Source of the DNA: Nisaea sediminum
GTDB taxonomy: Bacteria; Pseudomonadota; Alphaproteobacteria; Thalassobaculales; Thalassobaculaceae
Length of the DNA: 64,000 nt
Direction: 5' to 3'
Assembly (NCBI RefSeq): GCF_014904705.1
Contig: NZ_JACZCQ010000003.1
Coordinates: forward strand, 186,001 to 250,000
Below the pieces are notes generated by a model. That model was not told where the DNA came from. It saw only the letters and a list, made by a program, of their open reading frames with translations, and made no database searches. Shown piece by piece: positions 8,123-58,075 of the stretch. A program made the position numbers and the translations under genes. The first letter of the stretch is position 1, and the number at the start of each line of letters is the position of its first letter.

Positions 8123-9364
8123 ATGACTGATCACAAGACGGCCGACTATCCGCTTCCGGTGACCGGCCTGAGACCGAAACGGACCGACATGCTGATGCCG
8201 TGGACCCGGGCCCTGCTCATCATGCTGAGAGCAGTGCGGATCGGCACGCTGACCGTGCATGCACCCAACGGCGAGAGCTATCGCTTCGAGGGCAGCGATA
8301 GTGGGCCACGTGCGGAAGTCAGGCTTTCCTCCGACGATGTGAGCCGCAAACTCCTGCTCGGCGGCGACGTCCGCTTCGGCGAGGCCTACATGGAGGGCGG
8401 CTGGGATACCCCTGATCTCCCCGCCCTGATCGAATTCGGCGCGCAGAACCAGCGCGCGCTGTCCCGTGCCATCGACGGCACCCGCATCGGACGTATCTTC
8501 AAATCGCTGCAGCATTTCGCGAACCGCAACACGAAGCGCGGCAGCCGGCGCAACATCGCGCACCATTACGACATCGGAAACGCCTTCTACGGCAAATGGC
8601 TCGATCCGAGCATGACCTATTCCGCAGCGGTGTTCGAGCCGGGCGAGGACGAGCTGGAACCGGCGCAACGGCGCAAGTACCGGCGGATCGCGAACATGCT
8701 GCGCCTCGAACCCGGCCAGACCGTGCTGGAGATCGGTTGCGGCTGGGGTGGTTTCGCCTCGGTCGCGGCGCGGGAATACGGCGCGCGGGTCGTCGGCCTC
8801 ACGCTTTCCGAGGAACAGCACGACTACGCCATCGAACGGGCAAAACGCGAGGGCATCGCGGACAAGGTCTCGATCCAGCTTTGCGACTACCGCGACGTGG
8901 ACGGACGTTTCGACCATATCGCCTCGATCGAGATGTTCGAGGCGGTCGGAGAGAAATACTGGCCGACCTTCTTCGATCAGGTCCGGGCGCGTCTGACCGA
9001 TACCGGTCACGCCGCGATGCAGATCATCACCATCGACGACGAGGGCTTCGAGACCTATCGGCGAAACCCGGACTTCATCCAGAAATACATCTTCCCCGGC
9101 GGCATGCTGCCGTCGGTCGGCAAACTGACCGAGCATTTCCATGCCTCGGGACTTGAATGCTTCGCCAATGACGGCTTCGGCAGCCACTACGCACGCACTC
9201 TCGCAATATGGCGGGAGCGCTTCCACGCGCGGTGGCACGAGATCGCCCCGCTCGGCTTCGACGAACGCTTCCGGCGGATGTGGGACTATTACCTCTGCTA
9301 CTGCGAGGGCGGCTTCCGTGCCGGACATATCGATGTCCGGCAGATCGCGCTGAAGCACGCGTGA
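8123..9364 (+). CDS. Cyclopropane-fatty-acyl-phospholipid synthase family methyltransferase
   Basis: SAM-dependent methyltransferase acting on unsaturated acyl chains of membrane phospholipids. Visible are the substrate-domain signature HHYDIGNAFYGKWLD, SAM motif I LEIGCGWGGFA, the SIEMFEAVG segment with catalytic-site residues, and the C-terminal YCEGGFRAGHIDV. 413 residues is the normal length. It may be a true cyclopropane synthase (cfa) or a related methylase of the furan-fatty-acid pathway; sequence alone cannot decide, but the COG2907/DUF1365 neighbours favour a specialised stress-induced lipid modification. ATG 8123 has GGGGCGAG upstream; ATG 8108 is an alternative. Confidence 0.88.
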   Translation: MTDHKTADYPLPVTGLRPKRTDMLMPWTRALLIMLRAVRIGTLTVHAPNGESYRFEGSDSGPRAEVRLSSDDVSRKLLLGGDVRFGEAYMEGGWDTPDLPALIEFGAQNQRALSRAIDGTRIGRIFKSLQHFANRNTKRGSRRNIAHHYDIGNAFYGKWLDPSMTYSAAVFEPGEDELEPAQRRKYRRIANMLRLEPGQTVLEIGCGWGGFASVAAREYGARVVGLTLSEEQHDYAIERAKREGIADKVSIQLCDYRDVDGRFDHIASIEMFEAVGEKYWPTFFDQVRARLTDTGHAAMQIITIDDEGFETYRRNPDFIQKYIFPGGMLPSVGKLTEHFHASGLECFANDGFGSHYARTLAIWRERFHARWHEIAPLGFDERFRRMWDYYLCYCEGGFRAGHIDVRQIALKHA

Positions 9365-9368
9365 GGGC

Positions 9369-10736
9369 ATGACGGCAGAAACCGCCGCTTTGCCCTTCTC
9401 GCGGCTAAAGCTCCTCGCCTACGGGTTTCCTGGGCTGCCCCTTGCCGCGCTCGGCGTCCCGCTCTTCATTTTCCTGCCGTCTTTCTACGCGCAGGACCGG
9501 GGTCTCAGCCTCGCTGCGGTCGGGCTCGTCCTGCTCGCGGCCAGGCTCTGGGATGCGGTCACGGATCCGGTCATCGGTTTGCTGAGCGACAGGATCGCGA
9601 CCCGGTTCGGGCGGCGCAAACCCTGGCTTCTCGCCGGCACTCCGCTCACCTGCCTTGCCGTCTACATGCTCTTCGTTCCGCCGGAAGGCGCCGGCGCGCT
9701 TCATCTCTTCGCCTGGAGCGCGGCACTCTATCTCGGCTGGACCATGGTACAGCTGCCCTACACGACCTGGGGCGCCGAGCTTTCCGGCGACTATCACGAG
9801 CGTTCCCGCATCACCGCCTTCCGCGAAACAATGGTGGTGTTTGGAACCTTGCTCGCATCGGCCATGCCGGCTGCGATCGCGGCCGCCGGCGGCGAAAACA
9901 GTCTGGATGAGGTTCTCACGGCGCTCGCTATTTTCCTGATCCTCGCCTTGCCGCTCTCGGTCATGCTTGCGGCAGGACTGGTCGCGGAAACGCCTCGCCC
10001 GACGCCTGTACGGAAGATGGGGGATCGCTGGCGCGCCGGTGCGGCCCTGCTCGTCCGCAACAAGCCCTTTCTGCGCCTAATCCTCGCCTATCTGCTGAAC
10101 GGGCTGGCCAACGGACTGGCGGCGACCCTGTTCGTGCTGTTCGTCCAGAAGGGTCTCGCGTTGCCGGATGCCGTCGACACCCTGCTACTGACCTATTTCC
10201 TGCTCGGCATCGCGGGCGTCCCGCTCTGGCTGTTCGTCAGCCATAGGCTCGGAAAGCACCGCACATGGATCCTCGCCATGCTCCTGAACAGTGCGATCTT
10301 CGCCACCGTGCCCCTGCTCGGACCCGGCGACTATTTCGGCTTTCTCGCCATCTGCATCGGCACCGGCCTCTGCCTCGGCGCCGACCTCGTTCTGCCGCCC
10401 TCGATGCAGGCCGACGTGGTCGATGTCGATACCGCCGAGGGCGGCGGTGCGCGCACCGGGCTGTATTTCGCGCTCTGGGGCATGGCGACAAAACTCGCGC
10501 TGGCGCTCGCTGTCGGCATCGCCTTTCCGGTGCTGGAGCTGGCCGGTTTCGATGCCACGGGCGCGAACGATGCCGGCGCACTTCTGACGCTCTCCCTGCT
10601 CTATGGCGCCGCGCCGGTGGTCCTGAAGCTCGCCGCCATCGCGATCATGCGCGGCTTTCCGGTCACCGCCGAAAAACAAGCCGAGCTGCGCCGGAAAATC
10701 GACCTGAAATTCGCAGAAACCAGACCCGGGAGCTGA
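9369..10736 (+). CDS. MFS transporter of the GPH/MelB type (COG2211)
   Basis: Twelve-helix major facilitator of 455 residues. The segment DAVTDPVIGLLSDR followed by RFGRRKPWLLAG is the signature of the glycoside-pentoside-hexuronide:cation symporter group. A MelB-like MFS is a regular member of this lipid/photolyase operon, as also reported for the Rhodobacter RpoE regulon, so its substrate may be a lipid or lipid-derived molecule and not a sugar; that is inference. It starts 4 bp after the methyltransferase stop and is followed 3 bp later by the DUF3833 gene. Confidence 0.85.
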   Translation: MTAETAALPFSRLKLLAYGFPGLPLAALGVPLFIFLPSFYAQDRGLSLAAVGLVLLAARLWDAVTDPVIGLLSDRIATRFGRRKPWLLAGTPLTCLAVYMLFVPPEGAGALHLFAWSAALYLGWTMVQLPYTTWGAELSGDYHERSRITAFRETMVVFGTLLASAMPAAIAAAGGENSLDEVLTALAIFLILALPLSVMLAAGLVAETPRPTPVRKMGDRWRAGAALLVRNKPFLRLILAYLLNGLANGLAATLFVLFVQKGLALPDAVDTLLLTYFLLGIAGVPLWLFVSHRLGKHRTWILAMLLNSAIFATVPLLGPGDYFGFLAICIGTGLCLGADLVLPPSMQADVVDVDTAEGGGARTGLYFALWGMATKLALALAVGIAFPVLELAGFDATGANDAGALLTLSLLYGAAPVVLKLAAIAIMRGFPVTAEKQAELRRKIDLKFAETRPGS

Positions 10737-10739
10737 TCC

Positions 10740-11312
10740 ATGACCCGCCGTCTTCCGTACATTCTAGTGGTTCTCCTGACCCTCGGAGCCTGCTCGAACA
10801 TGCAGATCGAAGATTTCGCCGGAACCGGACCGGAACTGAAACCCGAAGAGTATTTCGCGGGCCAGACCAAGGCCTGGGGAATCTTCGAGGACCGGTTCGG
10901 CAACCTGAAACGGGAGTTCCTCGTCGACATCAAGGGCGACTGGGACGGGACCACGCTGACGCTAACCGAGGATTTCGACTATAGCGACGGCGAAAAGGAG
11001 CAGCGTATCTGGCACATCACGAAGTCCGGAGACGGGCTCTATGAAGGCCGCGCCGACGACGTGGTCGGTGTCGCCAAAGGCGTTGCCAGAGGCAAAGCCC
11101 TCAACTGGTCCTACGATCTGATGCTCAAGGTCGGGGACAACACGATCAAGGTGCGGTTCGACGACTGGATGTTCCTGCAGCCCGGCGGGGTAATGATCAA
11201 CAAGGCCGAAGTCTCGAAATTCGGCATCACCATCGGCACCGTCACCCTGTTCTTCGCCAAGGATGCGGTCAATCGCACGGGATCATTCGGCGGGCGTAAA
11301 TCGGCGGCCTAG
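10740..11312 (+). CDS. DUF3833 family lipoprotein
   Basis: Predicted lipoprotein of 190 residues. The N-terminal signal peptide ends in a lipobox (LTLGAC; Cys19), so the mature protein should be lipid-anchored, probably in the outer membrane. The body matches DUF3833: YFAGQTKAWGIFEDRFG, then a beta-rich barrel-like part with GDWDGTTLTL and DDWMFLQPGGVMIN. This family recurs with COG2907, DUF1365 and CFA-like genes. It is the last gene of the plus-strand operon, and its 3' end overlaps the end of the convergent NTF2-like gene by 30 bp. Confidence 0.85.
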   Translation: MTRRLPYILVVLLTLGACSNMQIEDFAGTGPELKPEEYFAGQTKAWGIFEDRFGNLKREFLVDIKGDWDGTTLTLTEDFDYSDGEKEQRIWHITKSGDGLYEGRADDVVGVAKGVARGKALNWSYDLMLKVGDNTIKVRFDDWMFLQPGGVMINKAEVSKFGITIGTVTLFFAKDAVNRTGSFGGRKSAA

Positions 11313-50496: not shown

Positions 50497-50563
50497 TCCC
50501 CGGAAAACCGTCCCGCCCCTCCCATGACTCCAATGCCAAGGATCCCGAGGGGAGGACGCTTCC

Positions 50564-51259
50564 GTGCCACGCGACGATCTTCTGAACCCTGATTACAATG
50601 CCGGCCACCGTCGCCGGCTCCGCGACCGTTTCCTGAAGACCGGACCGGACCGGGTGGCGGATTACGAACTTCTGGAACTGGTGCTGTTCCAGTCGCGCCC
50701 GCGCGGTGACGTGAAGCCGCTGGCGAAAATGCTGCTGGATCGCTTTGGCAGTTTCTCCGAGATCATCTCTGCCCCGGCGGAAGACCTGATGAAGGTCCGC
50801 GGAGTCGGCGAGAGCACCGCGATCGCGCTGAAGGCCGTGCGCGCCGCCGCCGTCCGGCTGATGCAGGAGCAAGTGCGCGAACGCGCCGTCGTTTCCTCCT
50901 GGGACCAGCTCATCGCCTATTGCCGGGCCGCCATGGGTTTCTCCAAGCGCGAGCAGTTCCGCGTGCTCTTCCTCGACAAGAAGAACCGGATCATCGCCGA
51001 CGAGGTGCTGCAGGAAGGCACCGTCGACCACACGCCGGTCTACCCGCGCGAGGTGGTCGCCCGCGCCCTCGATCTCGGCGCGACCGCCCTCATCCTGGTG
51101 CACAATCATCCGAGCGGGGACACAACGCCGTCGAGGGCGGATATCGAGATGACGAACCAGATCCGCCAGGCGGCCTCGGTGCTCGGCATCGTGCTGCACG
51201 ACCACATCATCGTCGGCCGCGCCGCACATACAAGCTTCAAGGCGCGGGGATTGCTCTGA
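50564..51259 (+). CDS. radC: RadC family JAB-domain protein
   Basis: UPF0758/RadC protein of 231 residues. A helix-hairpin-helix-like N-terminal part (LLELVLFQSRPRGDVKPLA, KVRGVGESTAIAL) is followed by the JAB metallo domain (LVHNHPSGDTTPS, the zinc-site motif) and the C-terminal end IIVGRAAHTSFKARG. GTG 50564 is preceded by GGGGAGG. The function is unclear; the family is often linked to mobile elements. Its last 84 bp are repeated, diverged, at 52398. Confidence 0.92.
   Translation: MPRDDLLNPDYNAGHRRRLRDRFLKTGPDRVADYELLELVLFQSRPRGDVKPLAKMLLDRFGSFSEIISAPAEDLMKVRGVGESTAIALKAVRAAAVRLMQEQVRERAVVSSWDQLIAYCRAAMGFSKREQFRVLFLDKKNRIIADEVLQEGTVDHTPVYPREVVARALDLGATALILVHNHPSGDTTPSRADIEMTNQIRQAASVLGIVLHDHIIVGRAAHTSFKARGLL
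51176..51259 (+). repeat. radC 3'-end direct repeat, copy 1 (candidate att site)
   Basis: 84 bp forming the last 27 codons and stop of radC. Matches the copy at 52398-52481 at 72 of 84 positions, in the same orientation. Only 17 bp separate this copy from the stop of the AT-rich membrane gene, so it marks the left boundary of the insert. Confidence 0.75.
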
Positions 51260-51276
51260 GTGTATGTAATCCAACC

Positions 51277-52233
51277 TTAACCGTTCGAAACGATCACCGG
51301 TGAAACGGTTTTATGTATTCTAAGAACATGTCCATCCATATTCTTGATTTTTAGATATATATAATCTTGATCGTCAAACACATACTTTGCATCCCTGAAT
51401 ACACAAGAAAAATCTGACAATCTAATTCGATTATGATTATCGCATATATTATTTAGGAAATTCGGCACCCTAAATGAATCAGATATGTAAAGAGAAACAA
51501 TCACAGGCCTCCCTCCCCCATATTCGCGCGGCAAATGAGGAAAAACCCTCTTAGCATAAGAATAAACAATAAAAACAGACGACAAAATTATAAAAAAAAC
51601 AATCATCTTTCGATAAGCATCTGCCAATTTCATTACAGAATGATCTAAATTAAAAATTTCTTTTATTTTTATGAAATTAATAAAAATCGAATATGCAAAA
51701 ATCACAGTAAATAACGTAAACAAAAGCCCCAGAAATACAAAAATTGATGCCCATATATTTTTAAAGGAATAATTTAAATCTTCAAAAATCTCACTTGGGA
51801 CAAGCGTCACAACACCAAATTCAATATAATTTGAACTCAGAATTAGCGTTAACGATACAAACGACAAACCAACAATGATTAACAAATATACCCCCAAAAC
51901 CCTAATAAAAATAACTCTCTCATCATTCTTTCCTTCAATAATTTTATGTATTTTACCTAACATCCACAAAGAGAATAAAAAAACTATAAATATAGGTATT
52001 CCAGTAATAATATTCCTTGCATCAAACGCGACAAAAATCGGGACCCCCTCTTGCACCCCATAAAATACCCAGCAAAAAAATCCGAAAACATAACAAATAC
52101 CAATAATTATTGCTGATGAATTTCTCAACCCCTGCGCTTTTGCGGCAGAAAGTAAATCATCGAAATACGTCTCCAACTTTCTTCTCCCGTAATGATTTAA
52201 AAAAAATACTGCAGCAATTAACCAGAAACCCAC
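51277..52233 (-). CDS. AT-rich polytopic membrane protein (acquired)
   Basis: Integral membrane protein of 318 residues with about six hydrophobic helices (for example GFWLIAAVFFL, SSAIIIGICYVFGFFCW, IITGIPIFIVFLFSLWML, VYLLIIVGLSFVSLTLIL, FVFLGLLFTLFTVIFAY, MIVFFIILSSVFIVY) and a C-terminal soluble domain of about 85 residues with several Cys (LNNICDN, LSDFSCVFRD). Strongly A+T-rich codon use shows foreign origin. Family not recognised. The start at GTG 52233 is uncertain. It is the only gene of the insert between the two radC 3' ends, so it is likely the cargo. Confidence 0.6.
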   Translation of the reverse strand: MGFWLIAAVFFLNHYGRRKLETYFDDLLSAAKAQGLRNSSAIIIGICYVFGFFCWVFYGVQEGVPIFVAFDARNIITGIPIFIVFLFSLWMLGKIHKIIEGKNDERVIFIRVLGVYLLIIVGLSFVSLTLILSSNYIEFGVVTLVPSEIFEDLNYSFKNIWASIFVFLGLLFTLFTVIFAYSIFINFIKIKEIFNLDHSVMKLADAYRKMIVFFIILSSVFIVYSYAKRVFPHLPREYGGGRPVIVSLYISDSFRVPNFLNNICDNHNRIRLSDFSCVFRDAKYVFDDQDYIYLKIKNMDGHVLRIHKTVSPVIVSNG

Positions 52234-52397
52234 CCCCGTCAGATTGAATTACGAACAGGAATGAAATAACTCCAAGACACTTTGATTTGGCAACTATTTT
52301 AGAGTAATCTCATGATCAAATTGCAAAGTTCCGCAAACGTCGGAAGAGATGGCCTCCAGTCGTTACATATATTGACTAATTGACCGGCAAAACCACT
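52234..52397. other. Right end of the radC-linked insert
   Basis: About 160 bp of lower-GC DNA between the membrane gene start and the second radC 3' end. It should contain the promoter of the membrane gene on the minus strand; no strong -35/-10 pair was identified. No coding potential seen. Confidence 0.45.
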
Positions 52398-52481
52398 TCC
52401 GTGCTCGGCATTGTACTGCACAACCACATCATCGTCGACCGCGCCGCCCATACCAACTTCAAGGCACGAGGACAGCTCTGA
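52398..52481 (+). pseudogene. radC 3'-end remnant (diverged duplicate, copy 2)
   Basis: 84 bp reading TSVLGIVLHNHIIVD..., equal to the C-terminal 27 residues of RadC plus stop, with conservative changes (D to N, G to D, S to N, L to Q). Homology begins and ends sharply: upstream DNA is unrelated, the stop TGA is shared. This is the sign of an element integrated in the radC 3' end that rebuilt the gene end and displaced the original one. Confidence 0.8.
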
Positions 52482-52490
52482 CTTCAGCGG

Positions 52491-53744
52491 CTATCGGGAA
52501 TCCGGCAGCCGGATGAAGCAGGCCGCAACAACACCGGCGAGACAAAAGAGCGGCAGGACCAGGAAGGCGGTCTCGAAGGCCTCCAGCGCGTAGACACGTG
52601 CGCCGTCAACCATCCGTCCTTGCCAGCCGAGATCGAGCAGATATCCGATGAAAGGCTGCAGCACGGCGCCGCTGCCGACGACGAAGCTGTTGATGATCCC
52701 GAGCGCGGCGCTGTTGGCCCAGGCAGGATTGTGCTCGCGGGCAACGGCGAAGCTCAGCACCATGGTGGCGGACCCGAAGCCCTGCAGCGCCAGCACCGCC
52801 TGTAGCAGGGGCAGCGGCATTGCCGGGAAGAGGATCACCAGCGAGATTCCGACGGTCGCCAGCAGGCCGCCCGCGACCATGAAGCGCCGCCGCTTGCCGA
52901 GCTTGTCGGAAAGCCAGCCGATCATCGGGGCGCCGATGCCCCAGCCGAAGAACATCACCGAGGCGAGTGCCGCCGCTTCCGGCTTCGACATGCCGCGCGC
53001 CTCGATCAGGAACGGCACCCCCCAGAGCCCGCCGAACGCCAGCATGGACCCGGTCATACCGACACCGAAGGTCGCGGCGAGCCAGGTCTGCCGGTTGGAG
53101 AGCGCGCGTTTCAGGCCTTCGAGGAGCGGACGCGCCGGTTCGTCATGCGCATCCACCTTGTCGCGGACGGTGAGGAACAGGCAGACCGTCAGCACCGCGC
53201 CGCCAATCGCCACGGCCCAGTTGGTGTCGCGCCAACCGACCTGCTCCACCGCGTAACCGAAGGGCGCCTGCCCAAGGATCCCGCCGAGAACGCCGAGGGC
53301 CTGAGCAAGGCCGCCCAGGAGCGCGAAGCGCCCCGGAAACCAGATCGCGGCGACGGACAGCGCGGCGACAAAGCTGCAGGCACAACCGAGCCCGATCAGG
53401 AAGCGGCCGACATAGGCCATTTCAATGCTCCCTGCGCTCGCGAAGACCATCACGCCGACGGTACAGATCGCCGCCGCGCCGGTCGCGAGCCGGCGCGCGC
53501 CGAGCCTGTCGATGGCGACGCCGACCGGGATCTGGATGCTGGCATAGACGTAGAAATAGACCGCCGAGAGATTGCCGAGGATCGCCCCGCCGACGGCGAA
53601 TTCCCGCATCAGGTCGTCGACCATGACCGACGGCGAAACCCGCAGGACGAAGGCGTAGAGAAAGAAGACCGAGGCGAAGAACCATCCGGCCAGAAGCAGT
53701 GCTTTGGCCGGGGTCGCAGGATTAGTTCCGGTCTCAGTGCTCAC
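52491..53744 (-). CDS. MFS transporter
   Basis: Twelve-helix major facilitator of 417 residues: LRVSPSVMVDDLMREFAV at the N-terminus, AIDRLGARRLATGAAA (loop 2-3), and GWGIGAPMIGWLSDKLGKRRRFM in the central loop. Resembles nitrate/organic anion carriers of the MFS; substrate unknown. Its stop lies 9 bp from the radC remnant. In strains without the insert it should follow radC directly. Confidence 0.86.
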   Translation of the reverse strand: MSTETGTNPATPAKALLLAGWFFASVFFLYAFVLRVSPSVMVDDLMREFAVGGAILGNLSAVYFYVYASIQIPVGVAIDRLGARRLATGAAAICTVGVMVFASAGSIEMAYVGRFLIGLGCACSFVAALSVAAIWFPGRFALLGGLAQALGVLGGILGQAPFGYAVEQVGWRDTNWAVAIGGAVLTVCLFLTVRDKVDAHDEPARPLLEGLKRALSNRQTWLAATFGVGMTGSMLAFGGLWGVPFLIEARGMSKPEAAALASVMFFGWGIGAPMIGWLSDKLGKRRRFMVAGGLLATVGISLVILFPAMPLPLLQAVLALQGFGSATMVLSFAVAREHNPAWANSAALGIINSFVVGSGAVLQPFIGYLLDLGWQGRMVDGARVYALEAFETAFLVLPLFCLAGVVAACFIRLPDSR

Positions 53745-53897
53745 GCGGCCTCTCCGGCGGAAACGGGAACCGTCTCAGTCGCATGCACGCCTGCGGCGGT
53801 CAATCGCCACCGACGGCAGCATTGCCTGAGTGAATTGTCATCAGTTCACGGCGGCGCCAAAGTGGGCATGGAACAACCGCCGGAACAGGGACCGGAG

Positions 53898-57818: not shown

Positions 57819-58075
57819 ACGGTGATATCGAGGATCGACCCCCGAGGCAGATCCGCACTGATTTCTTCCAGCGGGATCGCGTTCTGCCGTTGCCGTCCCT
57901 GCTGATCCGACCTCGGATCGCTGCCGCGCAGTTCCTGGACAAATCTGCTGCTTGCGGGGTCGAGGTCACGGGCACGCTGGGTCCGCCCGTCAGCCTCATT
58001 CGGCTGCGCCGGTACCTGCCTCTCGCCGGTCGGGACCGGAACCAGAGGAAAATTGTTTATCGGACCGAGTGCCAT
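57815..58075 (-). CDS. Uncharacterised small protein, 86 aa
   Basis: Polar, Arg/Gln/Asp-rich protein ending RGSILDITV, a C-terminal form that I associate with small conserved alphaproteobacterial proteins near flagellar or cell-cycle genes, without known function. Its 3' end overlaps the kinase stop by 4 bp on the opposite strand. A near-consensus sigma-70 promoter stands 83 bp upstream, so it is well expressed. Confidence 0.6.
   Translation of the reverse strand: MALGPINNFPLVPVPTGERQVPAQPNEADGRTQRARDLDPASSRFVQELRGSDPRSDQQGRQRQNAIPLEEISADLPRGSILDITV

Follow-up and report, generated by a model that had tools for sequence, protein, structure and literature searches.

The window, a stretch of 64,000 nucleotides from Nisaea sediminum, contains an intact radC gene whose 3′ end recurs downstream in the same orientation, with an AT-rich insert lying between the two copies. 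The features of the locus are given below in window coordinates.

50564..51259, plus strand: radC, intact, 231 amino acids, JAB/JAMM domain (PF04002, E = 1.8e-45); the congener G004 encodes a 98% identical protein
51176..51259, plus strand: repeat copy c1, the radC 3′ end in use, from the repeat alignment and the codon comparison with G004
51260..52397, no strand assigned: AT-rich insert of 1,138 bp, 33.3% G+C, without counterpart in the alignments with all four congeners
51277..52233, minus strand: cargo ORF, 318 amino acids, hydrophobic, orphan
52398..52481, plus strand: repeat copy c2, the displaced radC 3′ end, a relic joined to the native right flank
52491..53744, minus strand: MFS transporter gene (PF07690), the native right neighbour, directly after radC in the congeners G002, G003 and G004

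The original prediction, made from the sequence alone, had described an 84-bp repeat of the radC end with sharp homology limits, an AT-rich gene between the copies whose end lies 17 bp from the radC stop, and the absence of a visible integrase; these points were confirmed. The copies align over 84 bp with 72 of 84 bases equal at an offset of 1,222 bp, and c2 is recovered with E = 4e-25 when the 1.5 kb downstream of radC are searched. The match stops with the radC stop codon on its right side; on the left it breaks off sharply at 52398, the edge of c2, which corresponds to radC codon 205. The flanks of the insert have a G+C content of approximately 64%, compared with 33.3% inside, and the cargo ORF, which is the single long ORF of the insert, is convergent with radC. 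An Rfam scan of 50500-53800 gave no match, and the fold of 51256-51330 was no better than those of shuffled sequences.

The cargo protein has no match in Pfam, PADLOC or PDB, none among phages, plasmids and viral contigs, and a single, insignificant match in PHROGs (E = 0.049). No relatives were found in the 384 other genomes of the class Alphaproteobacteria, and the protein was not found in any of the four congeners. A structural model built from the one sequence predicts the first 230 residues to be mostly helical, at low confidence (mean pLDDT 54.7). The cargo appears to be one membrane-type protein without a recognised family. A tyrosine recombinase profile had no match among the window ORFs of at least 60 amino acids; it is a home-made profile, based on the integrases of the window's family and later supplemented with one from Bradyrhizobium, and may miss other kinds. 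PF00589 has six matches in the genome, none of which lies on the contig holding the window, and no trace of the radC-directed integrase type described below was detected in the insert.

The empty site and the two radC ends

The locus was compared with four other genomes of the genus (G001–G004). As predicted, empty sites exist in relatives: in three of the four congeners (G002, G003 and G004), the MFS gene comes immediately after radC, of which a single end is present. Alignment with G004 falls into two parts, the first extending from 48003 to the radC end and the second beginning at 52398 and reaching the limit of the query at 58000. The lone radC end of G004 aligns with both c1 and c2, and its spacer is like the one behind c2 and unlike the one behind c1. 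The empty-site alignments and the likeness of the spacers indicate that the DNA between c1 and c2 is missing from these congeners and that c2 with its right side represents the native arrangement. Insert-free relatives that also carry the second 84-bp copy had been named as evidence to the contrary; a second radC end near radC occurs in none of the four congeners. In the wider family, radC matches are present in 20 of 36 genomes, and a further match to the C-terminus, in addition to a complete radC, is found in the window's genome alone.

Two relatives show other arrangements at this place. G001 has a different, GC-rich insert of 1.95 kb between radC and the MFS gene (L113, ~9140-11090), with a second MFS-like ORF and a LysE-like ORF, both named by eye; no second radC end or radC relic was found in the stretch examined. 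In the family member G009 (L230, 14214-14646), radC is present only as fragments, which adjoin an MFS-like gene.

Codon changes relative to G004, the nearest congener, were counted in alignments without gaps. c1 is equal to G004 at 80 of 84 bases, with four synonymous and no nonsynonymous codon changes, and the rest of radC at 569 of 612 bases (43 differences), with four nonsynonymous and 38 synonymous changes. c2 has 10 base differences, comprising four nonsynonymous and four synonymous codon changes in 27 codons, an excess of amino-acid changes over the rest of radC (4:4 versus 4:38; Fisher p = 0.016). Judged from sequence, c2 is a relic lying outside any gene. By this measure c1 is not more foreign than the remainder of the gene; either any incoming end was donated by a close relative, or no replacement took place. 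Parsimony over c1, c2 and the congeners, applied to identify the incoming copy, does not decide. The proposal of integration into the radC 3′ end with restoration of the gene by an incoming end therefore stands in part: the empty sites, the position and the intact radC support it, but c1 does not present itself as the incoming copy. In the comparison suggested for recognising the native copy, c2 is joined to the native flank, c1 does not look foreign, and parsimony leaves the incoming copy undecided.

radC as an integration target in the class

The odd repeat in the window is tied to a wider pattern, in which integration repeatedly targets radC. Among 65 genomes examined, 15 have a radC match that breaks off at codon 182-205, with the C-terminus found 15-224 kb further downstream on that contig and strand. 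The left junctions were fetched from these 15 genomes and from G116 and G260, and in all 17, which are from Bradyrhizobium, a tyrosine-recombinase ORF directly follows the broken radC. The radC alignment stops at codon 182-188 in 16 of the 17 and reaches 216 in L187. A Pfam search with three of these integrases gave PF00589 above and Arm-DNA-bind_3 below the cut-off. A core pattern is present in 15 of the 17 left junctions, 12 of which read exactly TGCACAACCAYCC, the HNHP codons of the JAMM motif; the target in Bradyrhizobium thus coincides with the exact codons of the metal-binding motif. The pattern also occurs at the right junctions of G220, G308, G252 and G148, and the element of G220 is 16 kb long with a cytosine methylase and a Vsr endonuclease. 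The large Bradyrhizobium elements that interrupt radC at the JAMM motif codons lie in L174-L193, and these strains probably lack a working RadC unless another copy is present. The same broken-radC layout with a related integrase is found in G370 and G562, which belong to two other families. A degenerate form of the core before c2 had seemed visible by eye in the window; when the 60 bp upstream were scored, the best site had 6 of 13 matches, which is at chance level, and no core was found.

Intact elements break radC, and islets leave it whole. Among 80 radC loci retrieved by similarity, each with up to 6 kb of downstream sequence, four (L051, L052, L062 and L076) carry a radC-end copy downstream. 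L062 is Bradyrhizobium lablabi, in whose genus 261 of 265 genomes have a radC match. A non-random choice of 20 + 20 loci from genomes with at least two radC matches, among the matches listed, was examined more closely together with these four, giving 44 loci, of which 43 are from Bradyrhizobium and one is L051. They hold 63 downstream radC-end copies; none was found in three of the loci (L129, L137 and L138). The left edges of 31 of the 63 copies fall at 159-165 bp before the stop, three lie further upstream and 29 closer, and 43 of the 63 right edges are within 6 bp of the radC stop. When 62 copies were collapsed to 35 upstream groups, 12 groups begin at 159-165 bp. A second attachment class common to the window and Bradyrhizobium, with edges at 77-87 bp, was considered: this bin holds seven of the 20 short edges among the 35 groups (P = 0.0035 for the bin alone, which was chosen post hoc), and with P = 0.115 after the scan it provides no support.

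The segment from radC to the first copy was compared across 34 loci: in 18 it has no more than one other locus as a match and in six it matches 9-15 others, and the 3 kb after the first copy match at least nine other loci in 26 of the 34. This layout fits strain-specific segments ahead of a common flank, with exceptions. In gapped counts, 21 displaced ends have 96 nonsynonymous and 196 synonymous changes with one stop, and 21 radC ends have 59 and 186 with no stops (pooled Fisher p = 0.028; the reference was the one nearest to the radC end, a choice that favours such a difference). Any relaxation of the displaced ends in Bradyrhizobium is mild, and many of them appear recent. Agreement between the radC end and the remainder of the gene has rho 0.63 for 21 loci against 12 reference loci; among themselves, the references give 0.70. 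Intact radC genes followed by strings of displaced ends are a record of past integrations and a pointer to accessory genes, including restriction-type ones.

An integrase-like ORF is within reach in two of the 44 loci, L196 and L133, in the latter approximately 13 kb beyond radC. In L196, radC is intact, and about 200 bp past its stop lie the last 94 amino acids of a radC-type integrase (89% identical), the first 363 residues being missing; a radC-end copy follows at +5591. The integrase tail implies that at least one intact-radC locus descends from an integrase-bearing element, and L196 reads as a decayed element in which radC has been restored. Of the 46 intact-radC loci searched downstream (the 44 loci and L218 and L219, which are not from Bradyrhizobium), 45 gave no trace of such an integrase. 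Separately, pieces of approximately 40 bp holding only the core region of radC were observed in L128 (+3637 after the radC stop), L131 (+4211), L134 (+8412) and L213 (+3660), which would fit junctions between tandem elements.

Beyond Bradyrhizobium, 385 genomes across the class were surveyed, with counts that are lower bounds at the sensitivity used. A radC C-terminus is present in 320, and 19, including the window's genome, have at least two matches. Among the 18 others, radC is broken in two (G370 and G562) and intact with a downstream copy in two (G513 and G414), G488 has a radC-end copy on another contig, and the remaining 13 seemingly hold paralogues, fragments or duplicates. The downstream copies of G513 (269 bp, 87.7%) and G414 (265 bp, 79%) both end at the stop. 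Other cargos at radC, for which the prediction had advised looking, do exist in other taxa: three phospholipid-type genes form the insert of G513, and a run of chemotaxis-type genes, one of which was checked in Pfam, that of G414. The left edges outside Bradyrhizobium lie at 63, 84, 265, 269 and ~278 bp. In L051 (6693-10392), a Rhodospirillales MAG, the 63-bp copy of the radC end lies 3.6 kb downstream and is closely followed by an Mrr-type nuclease (PDC-S02 model). In Alphaproteobacteria, mobile DNA has repeatedly docked at the radC tail.

Origin of the insert and related elements

On balance, the insert is probably a small integrated islet at the radC 3′ end, brought in by a radC-directed site-specific recombinase that we infer. 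Circular or donor DNA with a radC 3′ end and one cargo gene would recombine with the chromosomal radC 3′ end, and this Campbell-type exchange would yield a full radC ending in c1, the cargo, and then the displaced native end c2, which, no longer genic, would drift. The recombinase may have belonged to a now-decayed element or acted in trans, leaving a remnant like a CIME (cis-mobilisable element). A two-step route is suggested by L196, in which an element would first integrate and an incoming end would then repair radC through homologous recombination. Such an islet is consistent with an insert that starts at the radC stop codon and with a c2 that runs into native spacer. A site-specific recombinase is the likelier agent in view of the radC-directed integrases present in the class and of the clustering of edges in Bradyrhizobium. 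Several findings weigh against this reading: no integrase was found in the window or on its contig, the window edge of 84 bp is not the 164 bp of the known radC integrases, no core precedes c2, the family has no close relative of that integrase, 45 of the 46 intact-radC loci gave no trace of it, and restored loci need a further step since intact elements break radC.

A less likely but still serious alternative is that homology alone was responsible, with a donor fragment or circle carrying a radC end and the cargo joined to radC by RecA without an integrase, either by a single crossover within the 84 bp or through one homologous arm and an illegitimate junction at 52398. The closeness of c1 to the congener, equal to that of the rest of radC, is as expected with a conspecific donor, and the left edges outside Bradyrhizobium differ between taxa. 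In the 21 Bradyrhizobium loci, moreover, the radC end tracks the rest of the gene nearly as it does in the references, and L196 looks as if an incoming radC end had replaced a broken junction; elsewhere, homologous recombination may have repaired a radC broken by an element. However, 84 bp at 86% identity offer little homology for RecA. Half of the Bradyrhizobium left edges lie within a span of 7 bp and those of three other taxa coincide at ~265-290 bp, neither of which resembles random joins, and the cargo composition is far from genomic. A scar of the known radC class with its edge at ~164 bp, from which a deletion shortened c2 by ~80 bp, is improbable: some short-edge Bradyrhizobium copies do have upstream sequence in common with copies whose edge is at 159-164 bp, but the 60 bp before c2 hold no core remnant, and the window's family has no close relative of that integrase, the nearest proteins in its 36 genomes being 26% and 31% identical to the Bradyrhizobium enzyme.

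The direct repeats flanking the insert could also be taken for the mark of a transposon or insertion sequence that entered just after the stop and copied its target. This is very improbable, as an 84-bp target copy would be unusual for transposition, no inverted match longer than 7 bp exists between the outer 80 bp of the two insert ends, and the sole long ORF lacks a transposase domain. The presence of native sequence twice would also arise from tandem duplication of native DNA, a contrary case named at the outset, or from an assembly error, and this we regard as scarcely credible; it is contradicted by the single copy in the congeners, by the unlike sequences after c1 and c2, and by the 12 base differences between the copies.

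The recombinase-borne islet is best read as CIME-like, decayed or moved in trans. CIME accretion is a named class, as set out in the available part of a review (PMC5704250). Like a CIME, the insert has no integrase or transfer genes of its own and lies between two copies of a target-gene end. These 84-bp repeats may be attachment ends, with the known core absent before c2; integrative elements targeting radC are known from the class, but none was seen in the window's own family. The insert differs in its cargo of one gene. Unlike the Bradyrhizobium radC elements, it has its edge at codon 205 rather than at the HNHP codons, and TGCACAACCAYCC is absent before c2.

According to the accessible text of PMC8627217, ICEs and IMEs integrated at radC in Mesorhizobium have the same target gene in the same bacterial class, but carry integrases and conjugation or mobilisation genes, none of which is present in the window insert; the IMEs described there (at any site) span 5.8 to 272 kb, compared with 1.1 kb here. 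The insert holds no integrase gene, and its only long ORF no relaxase or conjugation family. In Firmicutes, Tn554-like transposons occupy radC, as described for Tn6188 (PMC3788773) and the radC hotspot of S. aureus CC398 (PMC11217367). Tn6188 uses radC as a fixed target between bp 540 and 541 and disrupts it (PMC3788773). Transposons of this type have three transposase genes (tnpABC), whereas the insert is without any recombinase ORF, and the available parts of the two articles describe no long gene-end repeat of the kind that flanks it. The ssrA genomic islands of Dehalococcoides, which form series downstream of one gene (PMC3146451, in the part available), are likewise bounded by copies of the target gene's 3′ end, but rely on a serine recombinase, a 20-bp repeat and an RNA gene target. 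The window insert is best regarded as a further example of a largely known type, with a postulated recombinase.

A broader scheme, which we find unlikely and offer tentatively, is cassette docking throughout the class: units combining a radC end with cargo, most of them lacking an integrase, would enter radC, leave it whole and push older ends downstream, moved in trans by radC-directed integrases or by portable radC homology, with lineage-specific points at ~84, 164 and 267 bp and the window as a one-gene unit. If true, such exchange would be a gene-acquisition route in rhizobia and their relatives, of which there is no report among the matches listed; as far as the literature matches listed and their available text go, the Mesorhizobium article (PMC8627217) is the sole recognised report of radC integration in Alphaproteobacteria. 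In that genus, a separate observation concerns Mesorhizobium amorphae (L172, 3023-3169), which has an extra radC fragment ~910 kb from radC, corresponding to amino acids 127-175 in window numbering and ending just before the JAMM motif.
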